From the NCBI GenBank assembly GCA_017621035.1, contig JAGATY010000021.1, forward strand, positions 1 to 44,674: a stretch of 44,674 nucleotides of DNA. Reading direction: 5' to 3'. Of the stretch, positions 17,108 through 42,835 are shown piece by piece; the stretch's first letter is position 1; each line of letters opens with the position of its first letter. Both the position numbers and the translations under genes were made by a program. This DNA comes from Bacteroides sp. GTDB lineage: Bacteria > Bacteroidota > Bacteroidia > Bacteroidales > Bacteroidaceae. The notes beneath the pieces were generated by a model. The model did not search any database. It was not told where the DNA came from and saw nothing but the letters and a program-made list of their open reading frames with translations.

Positions 17108-17386
17108 GCCTTTTCTCACTGTAATCTGCTTCTGTTGGCAGAACAAAATTGTCAGAGACCCGAAAACGCTCCCTATCCTCTCCCTACCTTCTCCATTATA
17201 CCTTCACTACCTATTTGATATTGCTTCGATATATATTCGATAAAGTGTTGATATTTCAGGTAGATAGCATAGGGAAATCGAAGCAATACCAAATGGATAA
17301 CGGGGGTGGTACGGTTTCGGTACCTCGAAATAATGCTTGCGGTATGCTAGCGAAAGGTGAATTAGGATTATCGGGATTTATTTTTG

Positions 17387-28359: not shown

Positions 28360-29610
28360 ATGACAAAGGCGGAAGTACAACAAGTAAAGCTTCGTTTTGG
28401 TATTATAGGAAATAATGAGGCGCTCTTGCGTGGCATAGATATAGCCATGCAGGTGGCGCCTACTGATTTATCTGTACTGATTACCGGAGAAAGCGGTGTC
28501 GGTAAAGAGAGTTTCCCGCAAATCATCCACCAGTACAGTCGGCGCAAGCATGGGCAGTATATAGCGGTGAACTGTGGTGCTATTCCGGAAGGAACCATCG
28601 ACTCAGAATTGTTTGGTCACGAGAAGGGAGCCTTTACCGGTGCAATCGGTGAACGTAAGGGCTACTTTGGTGAAGCAGATGGTGGTACCATTTTTTTGGA
28701 TGAAGTTGGTGAACTTCCTTTGTCTACCCAGGCTCGCTTATTGCGTGTGCTCGAGTCCGGTGAGTTTATCAAGGTAGGTTCTTCCAAAGTAGAAAAGACC
28801 GACGTCCGGATTGTGGCAGCCACCAATGTTAATCTGCTTCAAGCCATTGCCGACGGTCGTTTCCGAGAAGATCTTTACTACCGCCTGAATACGGTGCCGA
28901 TTCAGATTCCCCCTCTGCGTGAGCGTGGAGAAGATGTAGTCCTGTTGTTCCGCAAATTTGCTTCAGACTTTGCCGAGAAATATCGTATGCCTGCCATCCA
29001 GCTGACTGAGGAGGCCAAACAACTACTGATGGCTTACCCTTGGCCGGGCAATGTGCGTCAGCTTAAAAACATCACCGAACAGGTATCTATTATTGAGACC
29101 AATCGGGAAATTACCCCCTCCATCTTGAAGATTTACTTGCCCGAACAGGTTAACAGACAGCATCTGCCTGCACTGTTTGGCGTGAAAGAGGGGAAGAGTT
29201 TTGAAAGCGAGCGGGAAATTCTTTATCAGGTGTTGTTTGATATGCGTAAAGATGTTACAGAACTGAAGAAACTGGTACACGACATCATGAGCGAGAGGGG
29301 AACAACTGCTGCCCAGGTGGTAACCACTCCCTATTATACAACACCCTCTCCTGCTATCGTCACTTCACCGGTCTCTCCCGATGTGCCTACCATCATCCAT
29401 CCCTCCATTAAACCGGCTGCTCCGATGGACGATGACATTCAAGACACAGAAGAGTATGTGGAAGAAACTTTGTCGTTGGATGAGGTAGAGAAAGAGATGA
29501 TTCGCAAGGCTTTGGACAAACACCACGGCAAGCGTAAGGCAGCCGCACAAGATTTAAATATTTCAGAAAGAACATTATACCGAAAAATAAAAGAATATGG
29601 TTTGGATTAA
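28360..29610 (+). CDS. Sigma-54-dependent transcriptional activator without sensor domain
   Basis: 416 residues. The AAA+ domain starts almost at the N-terminus: Walker A GESGVGKE (43-50), sigma-54-contacting GAFTGA (90-95), Walker B TIFLDEVGE (110-118), and RLNTVPIQIPPLRERGED. A linker rich in Thr and Pro (about 310-360) leads to a Fis-type HTH at the C-terminus (AAAQDLNISERTLYRKIKEYGLD). There is no receiver, GAF or PAS domain, so activity must be set by abundance, by a partner or by the linker region. The last 14 bp overlap lptE. Its place inside an envelope operon suggests it acts on envelope genes, but no -24/-12 site was found nearby. Confidence 0.92.
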   Translation: MTKAEVQQVKLRFGIIGNNEALLRGIDIAMQVAPTDLSVLITGESGVGKESFPQIIHQYSRRKHGQYIAVNCGAIPEGTIDSELFGHEKGAFTGAIGERKGYFGEADGGTIFLDEVGELPLSTQARLLRVLESGEFIKVGSSKVEKTDVRIVAATNVNLLQAIADGRFREDLYYRLNTVPIQIPPLRERGEDVVLLFRKFASDFAEKYRMPAIQLTEEAKQLLMAYPWPGNVRQLKNITEQVSIIETNREITPSILKIYLPEQVNRQHLPALFGVKEGKSFESEREILYQVLFDMRKDVTELKKLVHDIMSERGTTAAQVVTTPYYTTPSPAIVTSPVSPDVPTIIHPSIKPAAPMDDDIQDTEEYVEETLSLDEVEKEMIRKALDKHHGKRKAAAQDLNISERTLYRKIKEYGLD

Positions 29611-33245: not shown

Positions 33246-33354
33246 GTTGACGAGTTAACAAGTTGACGAGTTGACAAGGAGGGTGAAAAGGAAGTGGTAA
33301 ACTTGCCTCCCTTGTCCACTCGTTAACTTGTCTACTCGTCTCCTTGTCAACTAA
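33244..33354. repeat. Inverted repeat built of GTTGACGAG-type units
   Basis: The left arm (33244-33283) consists of reiterated AAGTTGACGAGTT(A/G)ACAAG units. The right arm (33306-33354) is their imperfect inverse (for example ACAAGTTGACGAGTTGACAAG against its complement at 19 of 21). The loop is about 22 nt. It overlaps the MFS stop and ends 5 bp before the PqqD ATG. Confidence 0.7.
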
Positions 33355-33358
33355 AATA

Positions 33359-33709
33359 ATGAAAGTAAACCTCCTACAAGCCATCCCTATACGGGCATCG
33401 CATGTGCAGACCGCTTACGAGGCGGACTGTGCCGTGCTTCTCTATCCCCGCTTCAAACGGGCCTGGATGCAACGCTTCCTCCTCCCCAAAGGCATGTCTC
33501 CTTACATACGTGTTCGCCTGGAACAACACGGCACGGCAGTTTGGAACCTGATAGACGGTCGTCGCACCGTAGCAGACATCATCAACCTGTTTACCGCCCA
33601 GACCGCTGAAGCAGACTACCCCTCCCGCATCGCCACCTACCTGATGCAGTTACAGAAAGATGGCTTCATCCGTCTTTTAGGAAGTGATATTTCTAAGCTT
33701 GAGGGCTAA
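33359..33709 (+). CDS. PqqD-like (RiPP recognition element fold) protein
   Basis: 116 residues, cytoplasmic. The core fits PqqD: RFKRAWMQRFLLPKG, then YIRVRLEQHGTAVWNLIDGRRTVADIINLF and DYPSRIATYLMQLQKDGFIRLL. PqqD domains bind the leader peptide of ribosomally made, modified peptides and present it to a radical-SAM or other enzyme. No precursor peptide, radical-SAM maturase or exporter specific to such a pathway is visible nearby, so here it may have another, still unknown role. The ATG at 33359 is preferred to a TTG at 33344 within the repeat. It is bordered by repeats on both sides. Confidence 0.82.
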   Translation: MKVNLLQAIPIRASHVQTAYEADCAVLLYPRFKRAWMQRFLLPKGMSPYIRVRLEQHGTAVWNLIDGRRTVADIINLFTAQTAEADYPSRIATYLMQLQKDGFIRLLGSDISKLEG

Positions 33710-34297: not shown

Positions 34298-34999
34298 TTA
34301 TTTCCGGTACTTCGCTTCTTCTGATTGCTTGTACAAGTCCACTTCGATGGCTACTTTCTTCTTGGAACTCTGCTTCTTAGTAGTGTCTATTGCTTGTACA
34401 TAGCCATCATTCTTATTGCCTCGCGGTTCCATTTTGCTCACCAGACGGCCGTTTTTGTAAAGGAAAGCACGTTGAATGTTTCCGTTCAATGATGAAATCA
34501 GGGTAACTCCATTGAATCTGATTTTGTATGCGTCATACATGGTGTCAAAGAATTGAGAATGATTCTTGGCATACTCTTCTTCAGGGAGATAGGTGATTAC
34601 ATCGGCTCGCATGAATTCTCCAAACTGACGCAGTATCAGTTTTGAGATGGCTTGGGTGTGGTGAGTAGTCAGTTCTCCGTTAAACAACAGTCGTAAGCGT
34701 GCCTTTATTTCTTCCTCAGGTTTCATAGGAACCACCACTATGTGCTGATTCATATGTTCCACATTGTAGGCTTCTTCCCACACCGGTACTACTTTGGAAA
34801 GAGCACCGGCTCTGGTTGTTGCCGACTTGTTTACCTTTGGCAAGGCGAGTACCTTTTCGTACTTCTCTTTTACGGACTCTATTCTGCCCATGAACTGGGC
34901 ATTCTTCATCTCTTCCTCAGTGGGTTGCGTCTTATTGTCCTGACAAGATGCAAGCAGGCAAACGGAGGTGAGAATTATTAGTTTGATAAGGTTGTTCAT
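34298..34999 (-). CDS. Exported lipoprotein of unknown function, paralogue 1
   Basis: 233 residues from MNNLIKLIILTSVCLLASC; Cys19 is the predicted acylation site and an ATG at 35023 is less likely. The body shares an ordered set of motifs with two genes upstream in the cluster (36951-37613 and 37615-38304): LPKV, then W/KENAY-like (VWEEAYN), PMKPEEEI, VITYLPEEEY, GVTLISSLNGNIQRAFLYKNGRLVSKMEP, and the ending QSEEAKYR. That order argues for one family. I do not recognise it. It is the last gene of the cluster. A long repeat-rich gap follows and I see no clear terminator. Confidence 0.78.
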   Translation of the reverse strand: MNNLIKLIILTSVCLLASCQDNKTQPTEEEMKNAQFMGRIESVKEKYEKVLALPKVNKSATTRAGALSKVVPVWEEAYNVEHMNQHIVVVPMKPEEEIKARLRLLFNGELTTHHTQAISKLILRQFGEFMRADVITYLPEEEYAKNHSQFFDTMYDAYKIRFNGVTLISSLNGNIQRAFLYKNGRLVSKMEPRGNKNDGYVQAIDTTKKQSSKKKVAIEVDLYKQSEEAKYRK

Positions 35000-35024
35000 A
35001 ATCAATTTTATTGTCGAGTACAAA

Positions 35025-35693: not shown

Positions 35694-36152
35694 TTACACA
35701 CTCATTGCAAAACCTATGTAGGTAATGTTGTTATCAGAGAATCCTATCTCTATGGGGTTATCCCAATGTTTCAGGTAGAGGTGGTAGCATCCTTCTTTCT
35801 TTAAGACCAGTCGGGTATCGGGAATGGAAGTAAGCTTTGAAATGTTGTCTCCCACTTTTATGATGCAACTGTTTATTCCGCTGACTGAATAGCGTGGAGA
35901 GGTCAGGCGAAAAGAGGTGAACCCATTGCCGGTGTCGAAGTGAAAGACATCTTCTCCATACTCCAGGTAGTGCACGGCTCCTAACTCGTTGGTGTCGGTT
36001 GCCTCTTTTGTGGGGTCATTGCCCAACTCAGCTTTGATTTGGCTGAGAGAGTAACACTTCCCAATCTCCAGTTTGTTTACTTGAATGCTTTGTGCTTGCG
36101 ACAAAGAGCAAAGCGAAATTAAGAGTGTAATAAGAGAAAGTTTTGTTTTCAT
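35694..36152 (-). CDS. Small exported protein, possible BamE/BLIP-like fold
   Basis: 152 residues from MKTKLSLITLLISLCSLSQA (signal peptide 1-20); the frame is open to 36200 but overlaps the upstream gene. The mature part contains two look-alike units, LEIGKCYSLSQIKAELGNDPTKEA and IIKVGDNISKLTSIPDTRLVL, of the K-x-G-x-S-x-x-x-(I/L) type seen in BamE/SmpA and beta-lactamase-inhibitor-like domains. This is an inference from spacing, not a firm family call. The stop of the preceding gene is 10 bp upstream. I do not know its function. Confidence 0.72.
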   Translation of the reverse strand: MKTKLSLITLLISLCSLSQAQSIQVNKLEIGKCYSLSQIKAELGNDPTKEATDTNELGAVHYLEYGEDVFHFDTGNGFTSFRLTSPRYSVSGINSCIIKVGDNISKLTSIPDTRLVLKKEGCYHLYLKHWDNPIEIGFSDNNITYIGFAMSV

Positions 36153-36162
36153 ATGTAGTAGT

Positions 36163-36906
36163 TTATAGGTGAGTACTAATGATTTCTCCTCTACTAGCAA
36201 TGCGTGTCTTCTTGTCCAGTAACGTTTCCGGAGAATAGGACTGCGATTTGTAATGTTTCTCTTCTGTCAAGAGAAACTTTCCCTCTTGGGTTATCTTGTA
36301 GGATGCATCGATACGTGCTCCTTGTAAGTTTTCTATCGGGCGGGAGTTTTGTATGATGTAGTCGTTGTGCGGAAAGGTTAATCTCTGAACATTGATTGTT
36401 AGGTTGCTGTTGAGCTGAGCTTCAATGGTAGTTACCAGATTGCCATATACTTCTCTGATAGGAAGATAGTCTATGATGTCACCATTGAAAGCAAATGAAA
36501 CAAGCCAATCTTTGTAGGCATTATGGTCGGGAGACTTTGCTCGGATTATGCCTAATATATACTTTCCATTGCTTTTGTTGAAAAGGTATAATAGACTAGT
36601 TTCTGCATCGTTACGGCTTTTGTCGTGCTTGTTCACATTGACGTAAAAGGGCGCATAATTGTTTCTGTAGAAGTGAGAAAAAGTTCTTATTCGCTTTGTC
36701 CTTAAATTCTCGAAGAAGCTTTCATCGTATGAGATGGGAAACTCCAAGAATCCATACTTCTCAGTAACTCTGTAAACGTTTTGCAGATATTCGTCACTGA
36801 GGTCGTTTAGAGAAACCGTTTGTTTTTCTAAAGCTATGTTGTTTTGTGCCGAGGTGAATGAGACAACGGCAAACAACAGAAGTAATGAGATTAAATAGCT
36901 TTTCAT
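36163..36906 (-). CDS. Exported protein of unknown function
   Basis: 247 residues with a signal peptide (MKSYLISLLLLFAVVSFTSA, 1-20). No motif I recognise. Features are an aromatic-rich beta-like core (FSHFYRNNYAPFYVNVNKH, TSLLYLFNKSNGKYILGIIRAK, WLVSFAFNGDIIDYLPIREVYG) and a polar C-terminus. GDIIDYLPI loosely recalls the TYLP motif of the three paralogues, but the order of motifs is different, so I keep it separate. It sits between paralogue 2 (44 bp upstream) and the BamE-like gene (10 bp downstream). Confidence 0.72.
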   Translation of the reverse strand: MKSYLISLLLLFAVVSFTSAQNNIALEKQTVSLNDLSDEYLQNVYRVTEKYGFLEFPISYDESFFENLRTKRIRTFSHFYRNNYAPFYVNVNKHDKSRNDAETSLLYLFNKSNGKYILGIIRAKSPDHNAYKDWLVSFAFNGDIIDYLPIREVYGNLVTTIEAQLNSNLTINVQRLTFPHNDYIIQNSRPIENLQGARIDASYKITQEGKFLLTEEKHYKSQSYSPETLLDKKTRIASRGEIISTHL

Positions 36907-36950: not shown

Positions 36951-37613
36951 CTAATTTTTTAGTTCTCTATAATTAGCCTCTTTCGATTGGGCATAGATGT
37001 TGATAATGAGATTGATGTCCCTATCTTCCCCTTTCAGAATAATAGTTTGGATGTCTGAGTTTAGTTTTCGGGGAATCAATTTTTCAATAGGTCTTCCATT
37101 CTCCCAAATATATCCTAGGACGATTCCTCCCCTCTTGGTTGAGAGAATTGTGATGCCGCTATATCCACAATGTGCCGGTATGTAGAATCCCATTTTATCA
37201 AGGATATGTTTGTTATCATCCCAATACTGCTTTTGAGGTAAATAGGTAATGATGCTATTATTAGTCTTGCCACCATTTCTTCTTATAAATAACTTGGCTA
37301 GTGCCTTTGTGTATTCCACGGTGCTTTCTCCGTCTTCTACATATACAATACGTGCCCCTAATTCTTCTTGGGATTTTAAAGGGATGGCTGTTATTTCCTG
37401 ATTATCTTTGGAGGCATCGTATGTGTTTTCTTTATCTTCGGTAATATCACTATAGTCCATGCCACGAAATTCGCGTGAAAAAGTATCAAACTTAGGAAGT
37501 GATACTGTAACTCTCTTCTTTTTAGGACGAACCTCTTGTGCTTTGGTCAATACCCAAGATGGCGACAATAAGAAGCAGCCGACAATCAGTAATATATAAT
37601 GGAAACCTTTCAT
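36951..37613 (-). CDS. Exported protein of unknown function, paralogue 2
   Basis: 220 residues from ATG 37613 (MKGFHYILLIVGCFLL), which follows the preceding TAG by one base; a GTG at 37655 would overlap that gene. A signal sequence occupies about 1-24. Motifs in family order: VSLPKFDTF, DKENTYDAS, AIPLKSQEELGARIVYVEDG, SIITYLPQKQY, YSGITILSTKRGGIVLGYIWENGRPIEKLIP and the ending QSKEANYREL. It is closest to paralogue 3 in the middle and to paralogue 1 at the C-terminus. Function unknown. Translation is likely coupled to paralogue 3. Confidence 0.75.
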   Translation of the reverse strand: MKGFHYILLIVGCFLLSPSWVLTKAQEVRPKKKRVTVSLPKFDTFSREFRGMDYSDITEDKENTYDASKDNQEITAIPLKSQEELGARIVYVEDGESTVEYTKALAKLFIRRNGGKTNNSIITYLPQKQYWDDNKHILDKMGFYIPAHCGYSGITILSTKRGGIVLGYIWENGRPIEKLIPRKLNSDIQTIILKGEDRDINLIINIYAQSKEANYRELKN

Positions 37614-37614
37614 A

Positions 37615-38304
37615 CTAATATGGAGTTTGTTCTTGATTATTTTCTTCTTCTTCACTAGTTACGTGTAGCTTTATTTTAGCAGTTATACCATCTTTTCTTC
37701 CTCTAAATACAATGTCTCGTGTTTCTTTATCAGTTTTGGGATATAATTTTTCTATTAGTAGACCGTCTTTCAATATCGCAACAACTTGTATCTTCCCATT
37801 TAATCCGGAAGTAATAGCTATTCCGCTGAAGGCATACCTTTGAGGATTGGTGATTCTTTTTAAAACATCTTTGTTTTCTGTTAGATAGGTTATATCGGGT
37901 AAATAAGTTAATACGGATGCTTTCATCTGTTTGTGTAAGTTGGAGTAGCGAACACTGATATATGAAAAGAACTGTGTTGAAAATTGTTTTGTTTTTCCAT
38001 CTTTTGTAATGAAAATATCTGCATCAAGAATCTTTTCACTTTTTAAGGGTATCCTTGTTTCTTCTATGAAAGAACTTGTTGCATCATAAGCATTTTCCCA
38101 ATCAATCATTACATCGGTAAGGTCTATGGATTGTTGGTTGCTATTAGATTTGCAAACTTTGGGTAAGGATACTTTGGTATAGCTATATGTTATATAGTGC
38201 TGGGCTGTTAAAAGCTGACTTTTCCAATCTCTGGCAAAACAAAGGAATGAAGTCCATAGTAGAAGAACTATGGTAGTGATAATTTTATAAGAAGTATGCT
38301 TCAT
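37615..38304 (-). CDS. Exported protein of unknown function, paralogue 3 (first gene of the cluster)
   Basis: 229 residues with a signal sequence (MKHTSYKIITTIVLLLWTSFLCFA, 1-24). Family motifs: KVSLPKVCKS, MIDWENAYDATS, RIPLKSEKILDADIFITKDG, ASVLTYLPDITYL, FSGIAITSGLNGKIQVVAILKDGLLIEKLYP. The C-terminus is acidic and Gln/Glu-rich and lacks the EA-x-YR ending of the other two. It heads the six-gene run of exported proteins. A -7 box and two GTAC palindromes lie upstream (38369-38453), the same arrangement as before the TPR regulator gene. Confidence 0.75.
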   Translation of the reverse strand: MKHTSYKIITTIVLLLWTSFLCFARDWKSQLLTAQHYITYSYTKVSLPKVCKSNSNQQSIDLTDVMIDWENAYDATSSFIEETRIPLKSEKILDADIFITKDGKTKQFSTQFFSYISVRYSNLHKQMKASVLTYLPDITYLTENKDVLKRITNPQRYAFSGIAITSGLNGKIQVVAILKDGLLIEKLYPKTDKETRDIVFRGRKDGITAKIKLHVTSEEEENNQEQTPY

Positions 38305-38368: not shown

Positions 38369-38453
38369 CAAATATAGGCTGTGGCAAATCTTTCTTCCTA
38401 ATAATTTGGTACTGAAAAAGTACTAATTTTCATTGTCGGTACTGGAAAAGTAC
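38369..38453 (-). promoter_or_regulatory. Promoter A with paired GTAC-N7-GTAC sites
   Basis: Minus strand, upstream to downstream: palindrome at 38439-38453, 15 bp, palindrome at 38409-38423, 32 bp, -7 box TATATTTG at 38369-38376. The ATG of paralogue 3 is about 65 bp downstream. The position where TTTG (-33) belongs reads AGGA. The sites are GTAC-TTTTCCA-GTAC and GTAC-TTTTTCA-GTAC. The pattern suggests an activator-dependent promoter. Confidence 0.72.
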
Positions 38454-38479
38454 TAATAAACTATGCCCCATAGCGATTC

Positions 38480-40900
38480 CTACTTTACGGTGAATTGCTT
38501 TTGTGCATGAATGATTTGGCCGTCGATGGTTACGCCTTGTATAAGGATGGTGTAAGTGCCTTCTCTGTCGCCGGTATAGAATTGGAAAGAGGCTTTCCCG
38601 TCCGGAAGGAAACGTACGCAAGGCTCCCAGTGGAGAGTGCGACGTTGGTCACGCTTGACAAGCGTATTGGGAGTGTACTTGGGGGAGTAGAATGCAACGG
38701 GCTTTTGATATCCTAAGGGAGTATAGCCGGCTATATTGACCTTCTCGAAAACATTGCGCCCTCTGCTTCCGGGTTTGGTCTGTATGATGATGAGGGTACC
38801 GATGTTGCGGAAGCCCCACTGGGTGTTGGTAGCATTCTTCATTACCGTGATGCTTTCCACATCGGCAGCACGCATTTGTAGTACCTCATTGATGGAACGC
38901 TCTTCTCCATTGACGACGGTGGCTACATCTGATTTCTTCATGCGCATGTTGGAACCATAGGAAGAACCGCCACGCACACCGATAGTGCCGTTGACAACAG
39001 AGACACGGGGAATACTGTTTAGCAATTCATACATATCGTAGGCATGTTTCTTGGCAATAAAGTCCGGCCCATAGGTAGTACTGCTGGCATTGTTGGGGAT
39101 GATGTTCTTGGGTAATCGTCTTCCCACGATGTTTACTTCTTCCAAGGCTATGACTCGTATAGTGCTGTCGTTAAGAGCGTTGATGTTTAGCTCCCGCTCT
39201 ACTTCACTACGATTTAGTAGGTTGTAGTGGGAGGCGTATGCCGGAATGCCTGGAAAAGACTCTTGTTGGAGAGTTATCTCAATGTCGTGGCTTCGGCCTC
39301 GGCGACTGAGTCCTCTGACAATGTATCGGGTACTGTCCGGAAACTCTAAATGGGTAAAACTGAAGCGACCCAGTGAATCGGCTACCTTCTCTTCATAAAA
39401 ACGAATGCCGGATATAATCATCAGCACAGGTGATTGCGGACGAGGCTTGCGACTGAACTCACTGATGACTTGCCCGTGTATTTCTTGTCCGATTTCTGGG
39501 CGAGTATGGGGATGGCGGTATTCTCCTTGCGCTACTTGAGGAATGTTATACCGTCGCCAGCCTTGTGTCATCATCAGTAAGTCGAGGTTTTGTTCTGCTT
39601 CTTTGTCATTGTTCTTGAAATAGGTCTCGGGTAGTTCAATGTTTCCTTGTAGTTCGGAAGTCAGTAATAGGTAAGTGTAAATGCTTGCGGGAGAGGTTGC
39701 TCGGGCATCTTCTTCCAAACAAACGGAGACAGAGAAGTTCCCCGGTTCCAAAGTGTCTGTGAGTTGGGCGTTGAGCATAGCCTGAACGGTTACAGCTTCC
39801 CGATTACTGTACTCCTCCTTGTCGGTTTGCAGTATGGTTTGTAATTCTTTGTCCGGGCGGTTGAAAACGAGACGTTCACTGAGTATTTGGTTCAGACTGT
39901 CGGCAAGCAGAACTTGTATGATACCGGCGGGCATCTGCTCTTTATTTATATATAAGGTGGATTGGTTAGGATTCCAAGGCCGGTTATAGAATATCAGGCC
40001 TCGACTATGCAAAATCAGTTGCATACCGGCCTTGTGTGGTGTGGAAGATGTGATGGCCAGCTTTCCTTTCACCCAATGGGTGGATAATACCGATGCATTG
40101 TCTATAGCAAGCGGTAGTTCGAATTCCTGATAACGATTCTGGGAGTTAAACACTTGTGCTACATACTCTTTTCCACTTTCTGCTTTCATTAGAAAGGTTC
40201 CCATGCCCCGATGGCTGTGAGTAAAGGTGGCAACGGTATCGCCACTTTCACGTTCAATAACTTGCCCGTAGACTTGGTCACTCCATCCTTCGTGATTGAT
40301 ACCCTTGAAAGCAACACGCCACGGAAGGCCGGCAGGAAGATAGCCTCCTTCGGGAAAGAATCCGACATCAAAATGTGAGGAGGTGTACATGGTAGTAGCT
40401 TCATTCACAGCTTTACCAATGGGATTGACGATGGCAATGGTGCTATGGAAGAAATAGTTCTCGGGCATGCTTTCCATCAGTCGTGTATAAGCACGCAGGG
40501 TGTAGTAACCTTGTGGAAGCATATCGTCCAATCTTATGTATCCATGATAAGAGTCTTTTTCCGGTCGAAGCTTAATACGGGTTTGTAATTTGTTTTGGGT
40601 ATTGATAAGTTCTACATAGATGTAGCGACTGACGGTTAGTGCATGGTGGGTGGCTGCATCTACCAAATGGGCACGTAACCAGATGGTATCACCGGCAATG
40701 TAACAGCTACGGTCGGTATGTAGAAATATCTTCTCTTGTGGGAAAAGTAAGAGTTGCTTGCGGAAACGTTGTGTGATGGAATCTGTTATTACATCTGTTG
40801 CAAAAGAGACAGTAGGAAACAGCATCTCTAGGCAGGTCAATAGCAGAATCAACTTGCAATAGCAGGGTAGAGAATGATATGTACAATTGCTTCTGTTCAT
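38480..40900 (-). CDS. MG2-domain plus TonB-plug protein without a beta-barrel
   Basis: 806 residues with a signal sequence (about 16-36). An MG2-type macroglobulin domain follows: EKIFLHTDRSCYIAGDTIWLRAHLVD (about 54-79) and MLPQGYYTLRAYTRLM. Further beta-domains run through the middle. A TonB-receptor plug domain lies near the end (about 610-700): YELLNSIPRVSVVNGTIGVRGG, VVNGEERSINEVLQMRAADVESITVMK, IGTLIIIQTKPG. The roughly 600-residue barrel of a true receptor is absent; the last 100 residues look like another beta-sandwich. It therefore cannot transport alone. It may serve as a surface adaptor, but that is a guess. It lies 13 bp after the TPR regulator gene and is co-transcribed with it. 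Confidence 0.85.
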   Translation of the reverse strand: MNRSNCTYHSLPCYCKLILLLTCLEMLFPTVSFATDVITDSITQRFRKQLLLFPQEKIFLHTDRSCYIAGDTIWLRAHLVDAATHHALTVSRYIYVELINTQNKLQTRIKLRPEKDSYHGYIRLDDMLPQGYYTLRAYTRLMESMPENYFFHSTIAIVNPIGKAVNEATTMYTSSHFDVGFFPEGGYLPAGLPWRVAFKGINHEGWSDQVYGQVIERESGDTVATFTHSHRGMGTFLMKAESGKEYVAQVFNSQNRYQEFELPLAIDNASVLSTHWVKGKLAITSSTPHKAGMQLILHSRGLIFYNRPWNPNQSTLYINKEQMPAGIIQVLLADSLNQILSERLVFNRPDKELQTILQTDKEEYSNREAVTVQAMLNAQLTDTLEPGNFSVSVCLEEDARATSPASIYTYLLLTSELQGNIELPETYFKNNDKEAEQNLDLLMMTQGWRRYNIPQVAQGEYRHPHTRPEIGQEIHGQVISEFSRKPRPQSPVLMIISGIRFYEEKVADSLGRFSFTHLEFPDSTRYIVRGLSRRGRSHDIEITLQQESFPGIPAYASHYNLLNRSEVERELNINALNDSTIRVIALEEVNIVGRRLPKNIIPNNASSTTYGPDFIAKKHAYDMYELLNSIPRVSVVNGTIGVRGGSSYGSNMRMKKSDVATVVNGEERSINEVLQMRAADVESITVMKNATNTQWGFRNIGTLIIIQTKPGSRGRNVFEKVNIAGYTPLGYQKPVAFYSPKYTPNTLVKRDQRRTLHWEPCVRFLPDGKASFQFYTGDREGTYTILIQGVTIDGQIIHAQKQFTVK

Positions 40901-40913
40901 GGTGAGAAAGTGT

Positions 40914-42677
40914 TTAAAAGTCTCGCATGAATATTTCCCAGTTTCCGGTTTTCTTCTCCATGGTTTCCAGCAGTAGGGAGAGCTTGGCGTTGGTAGAACT
41001 GACGGCTTGCTTGCTACGGTTGGTTACAATGCAGACAAGTTTTTGAGAGAGACCGATACGGTAGAGGCAACAGATGCGTAACTCTTGTTCGCCAAGCTTG
41101 CCGCAGTAGCAGTAGAGACGGTCAACAAAGTTGTCGCACACTTCGTTGAGCATGAGGTAGAGCTCTTCCCAGTCATCATCGCTGAGGGAGGTTTTGTTGG
41201 AGGCATACTTATAGCCGGCTACTCCTGCTATGTGGTAGATGTCTTTATAGATTTGTCTGGTGCCCAGTCTCTCTTGTGTAAGGCGTTGGATGGTTCGCCG
41301 TTCGTTGGCTAAGAGGACTTTAAGGTTCTCTATCTTGGTTTGCTGCTCTTGTTGGTGTGTCAGCATTTGGGCGAGTTGTATGTCGCTCTCTTCCATCTGT
41401 CTCCTGATTTGGATGAGTTTGCGTTCATTCTCGGTGATGTGTTGTTCGCAACGTAGGTACTCTTTGCTGCAGATGCGCTCTAGGGTTGCGTGGATGCGGG
41501 CAACCTCGTTTTGCTTCTTCCGGAAGATGTAGAGAAGGAATAGTGCGATGATGATGGCAATGGTGAGCGAGATGGAGATGAGGGTAATCTTCTGTTGCTC
41601 TTTTTGTTGTAGGCGAAGTGTCTCTTTCTCACGCTCTTGGTAGTGGTAGAAAGCGTTTACTCGTTGCTGAGATTCGTTTTCGCTCTTTTGACGTACGGAG
41701 TCGCTGTAGAGTTGATACTGTTCCAGGTATCGGAAGATTTTCTCTTGATTGTTTTGTTGCTTGGCTATGTTCAGCAGACGCCCGTAGGCTTCTTGTTTTT
41801 GGCTGTATGTTCCAAAGTGGCTGACCAACTGGTAGAAATGTTGGGCAGAGTCGTTGCGTTGGAGGGCATAGTAGTATTGTGCCAGACTGATGTAGTAGTC
41901 GGTAATGTCGGAAAGAGAGTAAGGTGTGGACTTCTTCAGTAGTTGGCATGCCTTGGCATAATTGCCGGTACGGCGATAGACTTCGGCAGCTTCGCGCCCT
42001 GCTATGTGGGAGAGATAGCTGTCGGAGAGTTTCTCGGCATACTCTAGGGAGAGGTTGTAGTAGAGCAAAGCACTGTCCGGACTGTTTGTTGCTGCATAGC
42101 CTTTGCCTAAGTCGCGTGCACTGTAGGCCATCATCAGGGAATCGTTGGCCAGGGTAGAGTAGTGGTAGGCATCTTTATAGAGGTCGAGGGCATCGACAAA
42201 CAGGTTCTGGCTGTGAAAGATAAGCCCCAAGTGGGTATGCAGGTCGGCCAGCAGGCGATTGTTGGATTGCTCTATGGCCAGGCGGTAAGATTTGCTGAAG
42301 CAGTCCATGGAACGAGGTGTATCTCCCAAGTTGTAATAGACCTTTCCGGCATGGTAATAGGCTTCTGCCAGTTGGGGAAGTTTGGGATGCTTCTGGTAGA
42401 AACTCAGTACGGTTAAGGCTGTTGAGTCGTCTTGATAACCGTAGCCGGCTTTGAAGTTGGCTCTTATTGTCAGCAACTGGTAGTAGTTGCTGTTGGTGGG
42501 GGAGACTTCTTTCAGCTGAGGAAGAAATTCTTCTAGCAGAAGGAGGGCACTGTCCGACTGTACATACGTCAGGCTATCTACCCGGACAAGGGTAGGGTGG
42601 AGCGTGTGAGAGTGGCAGCCAAGGAGGCAACAAACCAAACCTATAATCCAGATGATATTCGTACTGCGCATTAACAA
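40914..42677 (-). CDS. Membrane-spanning TPR regulator with C-terminal HTH-like domain
   Basis: 587 residues. The N-terminus is lipoprotein-like (VCCLLGC near residue 20). About ten TPR-type helical pairs follow (about 40-330; for example AEAYYHAGKVYYNLGDTPRSMDCFSKSYRLA and ADLHTHLGLIFHSQNLFVDALDLYKDAY). One membrane helix (about 364-386, ITLISISLTIAIIIALFLLYIF) is followed by a long coiled coil (387-480). The C-terminal domain (about 525-587) reads LGEQELRICCLYRIGLSQKLVCIVTNRSKQAVSSTNAKL, the shape of a LuxR-like helix-turn-helix. Bacteroides encode many such periplasm-sensing, DNA-binding single proteins. It is the first gene of its operon and has a paired GTAC promoter upstream, so autoregulation is likely. 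Confidence 0.82.
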   Translation of the reverse strand: MLMRSTNIIWIIGLVCCLLGCHSHTLHPTLVRVDSLTYVQSDSALLLLEEFLPQLKEVSPTNSNYYQLLTIRANFKAGYGYQDDSTALTVLSFYQKHPKLPQLAEAYYHAGKVYYNLGDTPRSMDCFSKSYRLAIEQSNNRLLADLHTHLGLIFHSQNLFVDALDLYKDAYHYSTLANDSLMMAYSARDLGKGYAATNSPDSALLYYNLSLEYAEKLSDSYLSHIAGREAAEVYRRTGNYAKACQLLKKSTPYSLSDITDYYISLAQYYYALQRNDSAQHFYQLVSHFGTYSQKQEAYGRLLNIAKQQNNQEKIFRYLEQYQLYSDSVRQKSENESQQRVNAFYHYQEREKETLRLQQKEQQKITLISISLTIAIIIALFLLYIFRKKQNEVARIHATLERICSKEYLRCEQHITENERKLIQIRRQMEESDIQLAQMLTHQQEQQTKIENLKVLLANERRTIQRLTQERLGTRQIYKDIYHIAGVAGYKYASNKTSLSDDDWEELYLMLNEVCDNFVDRLYCYCGKLGEQELRICCLYRIGLSQKLVCIVTNRSKQAVSSTNAKLSLLLETMEKKTGNWEIFMRDF

Positions 42678-42749
42678 TCCTTATTCTTAGCTAGTGTCTT
42701 AAAAAGCAGGCGCATGAAACACAAAGGTGGATGCGGAGGCTTTTTGCGG

Positions 42750-42835
42750 CAAATATAGGAGAGTATTTCCTTTCAGTTGCTATTTGTGAGTACGGAAAAA
42801 GTACTATTTTTCTTTTTTGAGTACTAAGAAAGTAC
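42750..42835 (-). promoter_or_regulatory. Promoter B with paired GTAC-N7-GTAC sites
   Basis: Minus strand, upstream to downstream: palindrome at 42821-42835, 16 bp, palindrome at 42790-42804, 32 bp, -7 box TATATTTG at 42750-42757. The regulator ATG is 73 bp further on. Sites: GTAC-TTTCTTA-GTAC and GTAC-TTTTTCC-GTAC. No TTTG stands at -33 (GCAA there). The geometry is the same as promoter A. Confidence 0.72.

Follow-up and report, generated by a model that had tools for sequence, protein, structure and literature searches.

We analyzed a 44,674-bp stretch of DNA from a Bacteroides sp. genome (assembly GCA_017621035.1, contig JAGATY010000021.1, positions 1 to 44,674; hereafter, the window), in which two minus-strand operons, one for exported proteins and one beginning with the gene of a tetratricopeptide repeat (TPR) protein, are each preceded by a pair of GTAC-N7-GTAC sites at a fixed distance from the promoter. 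The TPR protein, which is encoded between the two promoters and ends in a predicted helix-turn-helix (HTH), appears to be the best candidate for binding these sites, for which the initial annotation of the window had named no protein. Most probably, the twin sites are operators through which this TPR-HTH protein would activate both its own operon and that of the exported proteins.

Twin sites at the two promoters

GTAC-N7-GTAC occurs six times in the window; over 100 dinucleotide shuffles the mean was 0.22, and a count of six was never reached. Four of the six sites form two minus-strand pairs, 30 and 31 bp apart as initially annotated, and the remaining two (at 17309 and 30187) are single. 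Read 5' to 3' on the minus strand, promoter 1 (38453 to 38369) is GTACTTTTCCAGTAC-N15-GTACTTTTTCAGTAC-N32-TATATTTG and promoter 2 (42835 to 42750) is GTACTTTCTTAGTAC-N16-GTACTTTTTCCGTAC-N32-TATATTTG. The gene order agrees with the annotated assignment of the former to the exported-protein operon and of the latter to the TPR-regulator operon, and the proximal site is exactly 32 bp from TATATTTG at both, again as described. The copies in the window vary in sequence yet retain their half-sites and spacing.

The usual Bacteroidetes promoter is TTTG-N19-TAnnTTTG. At the position of the -33 TTTG, which starts 23 bp upstream of the TA, AGGA is found in promoter 1 and GCAA in promoter 2, so the reported lack of this element at both promoters was borne out. 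One TTTG is present 12 bp upstream of the TA in promoter 1, too close to serve as a -33 element. The TAnnTTTG -7 element of Bacteroides sigma-ABfr promoters is present at both window promoters (TATATTTG); the consensus of this element is given as TANNTTTGY in the available portion of PMC12632263.

The genome assembly (2,635,508 bases in 93 contigs, 91% complete) was scanned for the same patterns. Rather than being scattered over the genome, GTAC-N7-GTAC pairs were found at two places in the 2.64 Mb, both of them the window promoters, and the reversed-pattern control gave none. Single sites were near background (41 vs 29 for the reversed control), and a single site with TAnnTTTG 25–39 bp downstream was detected at three places, i.e., the two window promoters and one further place at 39 bp. 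The twin-site finding is considered real and specific to this locus because the pairs are unique in the genome while the single sites are close to the control.

The sites had been annotated as palindromes, a reading that we dropped. Beside relatives of the TPR-HTH protein (see below), GCAC-N7-GCAC and further direct repeats that are not palindromes occupy the same register, and for this reason the unit is best read as a head-to-tail direct repeat with an 11-bp period and not as a palindrome by design, the palindromic look of GTAC being incidental.

The TPR-HTH protein encoded between the promoters

The regulator carries a lipobox (LLGC) whose cysteine, Cys21, is present in 62/62 aligned homologues. 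Residues 28–307 are helical and assigned to TPR by Pfam (TPR_12). The sole strong membrane segment after the signal lies at about residues 364–385 by hydropathy, and is followed by RKK, a coiled coil and the C-terminal domain. Under the positive-inside rule, RKK after a membrane helix indicates the cytoplasmic side. The TPR domain is likely periplasmic, given the lipobox and the RKK following the membrane helix. The AlphaFold2 (AF2) model of the protein has a predicted local distance difference test score (pLDDT) of 88.4, and a model of the C-terminal part one of 93.8; in the latter, helices at 530–540, 545–552 and 556–573 follow the order of a LuxR-type HTH. Based on the AF2 models and the SKQ position, the predicted recognition helix is 556–573, beginning at S555-K556-Q557. 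Sensor, membrane helix and predicted DNA-binding domain are thereby combined in one chain, the DNA-binding domain resting on fold prediction.

The three predicted C-terminal helices fit those of LuxR/NarL-type (GerE) regulators. Weak Foldseek matches, none at E ≤ 0.001, included LuxR-type and sigma-region-4 HTHs, among them the C-terminal domain of VraR (7ve4; root-mean-square deviation 1.8 over 66 columns, E 2.1) and the NarL-DNA complex (1je8). Of 54 close homologues, four matched Pfam GerE at E ≤ 0.1, the best at 6.9e-04, and among ten further proteins this profile exceeded the Pfam cut-off of 23.5 bits in two flavobacterial ones (L025, 24.3; L041, 25.7), with three more below it. In a profile search of the PDB, ribosome recycling factor was the top match (E 4.6e-05) and was taken as chance, since it is located on the stretch before the HTH. 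The next matches were an archaeal regulator (0.0035), PdeL (0.016) and a Bacteroides LuxR-type regulator (3clo, 0.078), with VraR (0.083) and RcsB (0.11) among those that followed. As far as sequence and models go, the mode of the protein, that of a one-component membrane regulator, is clear, and any placement in a family would be provisional. No close relatives of it were found in the broader genome-contig collection, and its three paralogues in its own genome (L137–L139) have no twin GTAC site.

The protein was compared with known membrane regulators and TPR proteins. ToxR and CadC consist of a periplasmic sensor, one membrane helix and a cytoplasmic winged-helix DNA-binding domain. The window protein resembles them in its predicted periplasmic sensor, single membrane helix and predicted cytoplasmic DNA-binding domain, and probably in directly controlling nearby promoters, whereas its HTH is C-terminal (the opposite topology) and LuxR-like, its sensor is of the TPR type, and it has a lipid anchor. 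FimS is presented in the available portion of PMC11053733 as a putative inner-membrane sensor with a periplasmic TPR domain, for which a polypeptide or other small ligand is suggested. NCBIfam FimS matches the window protein over residues 15–391 (E 5.8e-06), with TPR_12 helices at 28–307, then a long helix with a hydrophobic stretch at 364–385, and a likely periplasmic location of the TPR part; the score is 24.9 bits against a cut-off of 600, and the match ends at residue 391. In contrast to FimS, which has two membrane helices and a histidine kinase signalling to a separate regulator, the window protein combines a lipobox and a single strong membrane helix with a predicted HTH of its own, and no histidine kinase domain was found in it by Pfam. 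The BT3442 family (NCBIfam NF053779) matches almost the full length of the window protein, residues 3–570 (E 2.1e-21). BT_3442 of Bacteroides thetaiotaomicron is a TPR protein heading a cluster for lipoproteins and MACPF proteins (PMC2954219), a gene setting similar to that in the window. With 76.3 bits against the curated cut-off of 940, the window protein is a relative and not a member of this family. The accessible part of PMC2954219 describes BT_3442 only as a TPR protein, without a regulatory role or operator.

Repeats beside related regulators in other genomes

Using a search profile built from four TPR-HTH proteins, homologues were detected in 104 of 119 genomes of the genus, often several in each. 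In the family, homologues occur in 166 of 301 genomes at E ≤ 1e-20. A total of 132 regulator loci (90 from the genus and 42 from the family) were read; these were hand-picked down the match lists, mostly reaching the C-terminus, and are not a random sample. We kept 125 regulators after dropping L097 and L154 (frame too short for C-terminal alignment) and five that were >80% alike by 3-mers. L153 and L184 are one gene, and the duplicate L148 was dropped from the family comparison.

Across the 125 regulators, the density of G[C/T]AC-N7-G[C/T]AC is 2.37 per kb in the first 150 bp past the stop codon and 0.054 per kb inside the gene, a 44-fold difference. Those first 150 bp, 18.6 kb in all, contain 44 sites (34/124 loci), compared with 4 in 41.9 kb from 150 to 500 bp after the stop and 3 in 111.5 kb beyond; around the regulator start 6 were found in 37.3 kb (4/125 loci), and inside genes 12 in 224.2 kb. 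A site within 200 bp downstream was present for 28 of the 39 regulators scoring over 400 and for 7 of the 61 scoring 250–400. Twelve of 48 sites within 350 bp downstream had a strict TAnnTTTG 10–69 bp on, eight of them at 32 bp, three at 31 bp and one at 43 bp. With one mismatch allowed in TAnnTTTG, 22 of 58 boxes were at 31–32 bp, and no other distance was represented more than three times. The -33 TTTG was absent in 10 of the 11 related promoters at 31–32 bp, L058 having one.

The type of site is associated with the clade of the regulator. All of the 13 best-scoring genus regulators (L047 to L058 and L077) have GTAC-N7-GTAC beside the gene, downstream in 12 and upstream in the window. In the next group, L059 to L064, L080 and L081 carry GCAC-N7-GCAC or a mixture of GCAC and GTAC. 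At L065, L066, L068, L071, L072, L075 and L076, the repeated word is TG[C/T]ACAC or AGCACAC and the period is 12. Downstream of the regulators at L085 and L089 are 11-bp GCAC repeat runs with three or four half-sites, not two separated pairs.

At 71 further promoter candidates next to regulators, all without the G[C/T]AC motif, we counted direct repeats that agree in 6 or more of 7 bases and end 27–40 bp before TAnnTTTG, for periods 8 to 20. Period 11 was found in 12 candidates and period 12 likewise in 12, seven of the period-12 cases being the CACAC group above; the eleven other periods gave 0–6 (mean 2.6), and for most of the 71 candidates no repeat was recognised. These counts therefore suggest that different regulators use different words (TTTGTCA, TTGTGAA, TGTAAAT and ATTTGCG, for example) in the same layout.

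In the 125 regulators, the recognition helix opens with [S/T/A]-[K/R], and the identity of the next residue tracks the half-site. Within the flanks surveyed (350 bp downstream, plus the stretch around the start of the open frame that reaches 250 bp to its 5' side and 150 bp to its 3' side), Q-type regulators had GTAC in 15 of 24 cases and GCAC in 0 of 24, vs 3 and 17, respectively, of 101 non-Q regulators (Fisher p = 9e-11, kinship ignored); L079, for example, is of the Q type and has a GTAC site. Among the 41 family rows that had not been used to notice the rule, nine have a G[C/T]AC site. Eight of these follow the rule, i.e., L142–L144 and L156 (Q with GTAC), L145 and L166 (S with GCAC), and L146 and L147 (E with GCAC); L165 (A with GTAC) breaks it, and many S-type rows have no site. 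A code of Q for GTAC and S or E for GCAC is thus suggested as a lead. We do not claim it as proved, given that the Fisher test ignores kinship and that a tree-aware test offers 2–3 independent pairs.

The initial annotation had also proposed testing whether such sites lie before exported-protein genes, and this was so in part. Of ten first-downstream proteins scanned (hand-picked from 28 loci), seven are DUF3244 exported proteins and one is a C39-peptidase protein, and a methyltransferase also stands first downstream in relatives. What the sites share therefore seems to be a position near the gene of the regulator, and not a general link to exported proteins. The C39-peptidase protein (Pfam PF03412, E 3.3e-29), of a kind used in peptide or bacteriocin export, follows the site-bearing promoter of L058. 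The first gene after the site in L053, L143 and L062 is S-adenosylmethionine methyltransferase-like (L053 by Pfam scan, the others by eye), and no signal peptide was seen by eye in these three products, unlike in the DUF3244 proteins elsewhere.

The arrangement was also found in another genus, a positive outcome of the scan of related genomes that the annotation had proposed. Genome G129 (Prevotellaceae UBA4361; L018/L045) has a TPR-HTH gene of the SKQ type, and at three of its promoters the site precedes TAnnTTTG by exactly 32 bp. The regulator promoter has one GTACTATTTGCGTAC 32 bp before TATCTTTG, and the gene start, with a lipobox (LFAC), is 5 bp after the box; because the -7 box ends 5 bp before the ATG (L184:1668-1683), this transcript may have almost no leader. 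A twin site with 30-bp spacing is located 32 bp before TATCTTTG, 2.4 kb past the regulator gene, with its target cut off by the nearby contig end. A third, unlinked twin site (31 bp) is located 32 bp before TATTTTTG on contig C60 (L185:884-929), and a gene for an exported-looking protein opens about 350 bp after this promoter; such regulons can therefore include unlinked promoters. G129 is an independent copy of the window arrangement, in which the promoter of the regulator and one or more further promoters carry the site.

The full layout (two pairs, spacer 13–18, 29–35 bp to TAnnTTTG) was searched blindly in a broader contig collection, giving 29 loci, 24 of them with Bacteroidota titles. 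In nine loci (L019, L021, L025, L027, L028, L031, L039, L041 and L043), a gene with the C-terminal domain of the regulators ends 17–185 bp before the site on the same strand. Eight of these genes have TPR by Pfam, and the ninth, in L019, is cut by the locus end (194 residues). L021 and the Flavobacteriia (L025, L027, L028, L039, L041 and L043) have a spacer of 17–18 and 34–35 bp to the box. Simple tandem arrays account for many of the remaining 20 loci (e.g., L020, L023, L029 and L037). L031 (JAMPBQ010000012.1) is labelled as a Clostridium sp. metagenome-assembled genome, yet has a Bacteroidota-type promoter and a TPR-HTH gene; our guess is that the label may be a binning error. In Maribacter (L043:1836-7574 and L025:2-3040), large TPR-HTH-type genes stand in tandem with a GTACCCY twin site between neighbours, and one regulator may therefore control the next.

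Not every GTAC pair in the family was accepted as an operator, since 16 of the 301 genomes have a pair and many of these are 11-bp tandem arrays or coding-looking. Arrays of this kind in G023, G049, G062 and G197 (L011–L013 and L015) are apparently unrelated to the promoters described here. Of 12 genomes chosen for their regulators, eight have a twin pair within 8–30 bp (reversed control, 8 matches in 4 genomes), and in seven of the eight one such pair is beside or linked to an already known regulator. G336, G351, G365 and G378 also have GTACGGAGC-like arrays, taken as unrelated. In an order-level set of 29 loci (L199–L227, 26 with at least 100 bp of downstream DNA), neither a regulator of the [S/T]-[K/R]-Q type nor a G[C/T]AC-N7/8-G[C/T]AC site was present, hence this set tests absence alone; other period-11 repeats ended 29–34 bp before TAnnTTTG in 4 of the 29.

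Interpretation and gene setting

Several results weigh against the twin sites being operators of the TPR-HTH protein or against the generality of such a pairing. For the DNA-binding domain, the window protein matched no HTH family in Pfam, GerE included, and a Foldseek search gave no match below E 0.13. For the sites, none of the 25 regulators scoring under 250 had G[C/T]AC-N7-G[C/T]AC within 200 bp downstream, most sites outside the top clades are unexplained, and the twin spacing is loose in relatives (23–51 bp). A strict TAnnTTTG was lacking within 10–69 bp of 36 of the 48 downstream sites, partly distal ones, and five top loci (L048, L049, L050, L052 and L055) have no strict box at all. 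For the helix residue, 9 of the 24 Q-type regulators had no strict GTAC site in the flanks searched; the site of L153 is just outside the searched stretch, and none was seen for L067, L078 (which also lacks GCAC), L157 and L172. GTAC also occurs with the non-Q regulators L066 (E), L095 (S) and L165 (A). With the C-terminal 110 residues left out of the tree, the helix residue changes three times and the operator five times, and the 2–3 independent pairs are never opposite; so few pairs cannot give significance to a recognition code.

We considered four other explanations. The TPR-HTH protein could bind the sites as a repressor that leaves on signal, which we regard as unlikely. Autoregulated operators are often repressor sites and the sign of regulation is not readable from sequence, but the sites stop 32 bp short of the -7 box and overlap neither this element nor the start, and both window promoters, like nearly all related ones, lack the -33 TTTG, as expected of activator-dependent promoters. 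Less likely still, the twin sites are bound by another DNA-binding protein, such as a response regulator, for which the TPR gene is just one target among others. The window HTH is indeed weakly similar to known HTHs, and TPR sensors such as FimS act via a separate regulator. However, the site type follows both the clade and the recognition-helix residue of the neighbouring TPR-HTH gene, TPR-HTH genes end just before the site in distant Bacteroidota, and GerE is above the Pfam cut-off in two such distant proteins (L025 and L041).

It is very improbable that the repeats belong to a mobile or recombination element or act in RNA, despite the 11-bp GTAC tandem arrays in some family genomes. The window repeats are upstream of the -7 box and therefore outside the predicted transcript (RNA hairpins were set aside on this ground, without folding), their half-sites and spacing are kept while the copies differ in sequence, and no transposase was found among the 20 window open reading frames (ORFs) by Pfam scan, no search for flanking repeats having been made. 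Chance occurrence of GTAC pairs near a promoter-like word, which the slight excess of single sites over the control in the own genome and the many tandem repeats among the family matches might favor, is scarcely credible given the identical 32-bp distance of both genome pairs, the enrichment after regulator genes and 31–32-bp peak in other genomes, and the repeat-period counts.

The annotated proposal of an activator on the tandem sites fits the paired sites, their fixed distance and the lack of a -33 element; DNA binding, activation rather than repression, the number of dimers and the signal are parts that we infer, activation from the site position and the missing -33 element. In the proposed mechanism, the TPR-HTH regulator would be anchored by its N-terminal lipid at the outer face of the inner membrane, where the periplasmic TPR domain would sense a signal. 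The chain would cross the membrane once, and the coiled coil would present the LuxR-like HTH to DNA. Two units, probably dimers, would each occupy a head-to-tail pair of GTAC half-sites 11 bp (one helix turn) apart, stacked about three turns from each other on one face of the DNA. The bound units would recruit RNA polymerase to the -7 box 32 bp away in place of the absent -33 element. This would turn on the neighbouring exported-protein operon and, by positive autoregulation, the operon of the regulator itself. Relatives elsewhere in Bacteroidota probably use this layout with different half-site words.

The features of the two operons are listed in the table. The gene of the 806-aa protein starts 13 bp after the regulator gene and is presumably in the same operon; the MG2-like stretch of its product scores below the Pfam cut-off, and the Plug domain is present with no match to a beta-barrel domain. 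The three related exported proteins of 229, 234 and 241 aa matched no Pfam or NCBIfam family at the thresholds used. Elsewhere in the window are a gene for a PqqD-like small protein (33344-33709) adjoining that of a major facilitator superfamily transporter, and a gene for a sigma-54 activator (28360-29610) with a Fis-type HTH and no match to an N-terminal sensor domain.

Table. Positions of promoter elements and genes of the two operons in the window (aa, amino acids)
Feature	Position	Strand	Evidence or remark
Distal operator-like site, regulator operon, GTACTTTCTTAGTAC	42821..42835	-	Motif count and sequence read
Proximal operator-like site, regulator operon, GTACTTTTTCCGTAC	42790..42804	-	31 bp from distal site
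-7 promoter element, regulator operon, TATATTTG	42750..42757	-	Proximal site 32 bp upstream; -33 TTTG absent
TPR-HTH regulator gene, 587 aa	40914..42677	-	Pfam TPR_12, homologue alignment, AF2 model, hydropathy
Predicted HTH of regulator, residues 530-573	40959..41090	-	AF2 models
Exported protein, 806 aa, MG2-like stretch and TonB Plug domain	38480..40900	-	Pfam, ORF coordinates
Distal operator-like site, exported-protein operon, GTACTTTTCCAGTAC	38439..38453	-	Motif count and sequence read
Proximal operator-like site, exported-protein operon, GTACTTTTTCAGTAC	38409..38423	-	30 bp from distal site
-7 promoter element, exported-protein operon, TATATTTG	38369..38376	-	Proximal site 32 bp upstream; -33 TTTG absent
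First gene of exported-protein operon, 229 aa, related to 234- and 241-aa proteins	37615..38304	-	
Exported protein, 234 aa, paralogue of 229- and 241-aa proteins	36951..37655	-	
Exported protein, 247 aa, no family above curated cut-off	36163..36906	-	
Small exported protein, listed as 168 aa (true start probably further downstream)	35694..36200	-	
Small exported protein, 151 aa	35025..35480	-	
Exported lipoprotein-like protein, 241 aa, paralogue of 229- and 234-aa proteins	34298..35023	-	

Full-text searches of open-access PMC listed no paper whose title or abstract opening dealt with this operator or with these proteins as regulators, though a description may exist elsewhere, and the nearest curated names (BT3442 family and FimS) do not describe the homologues as DNA-binding regulators. 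On balance, we lean slightly toward the view that a large class of TPR-HTH activators, lipid-anchored and crossing the membrane once, has so far gone undescribed in Bacteroidota. Genomes of this genus would have several of them, each reading its own head-to-tail repeat (period 11–12 bp) about 32–34 bp upstream of a -33-less promoter beside its gene, with a short helix code (Q for GTAC, S or E for GCAC) that would predict operators and targets. Knowledge of the operator gives each regulator a target, and the switching-on of surface and secreted-protein clusters in gut Bacteroides becomes testable with one reporter per promoter. The layout also suggests a way to fire Bacteroidota promoters without a -33 box and, if true, the recognition-helix code would let the operators and targets of orphan regulators be predicted from sequence alone.

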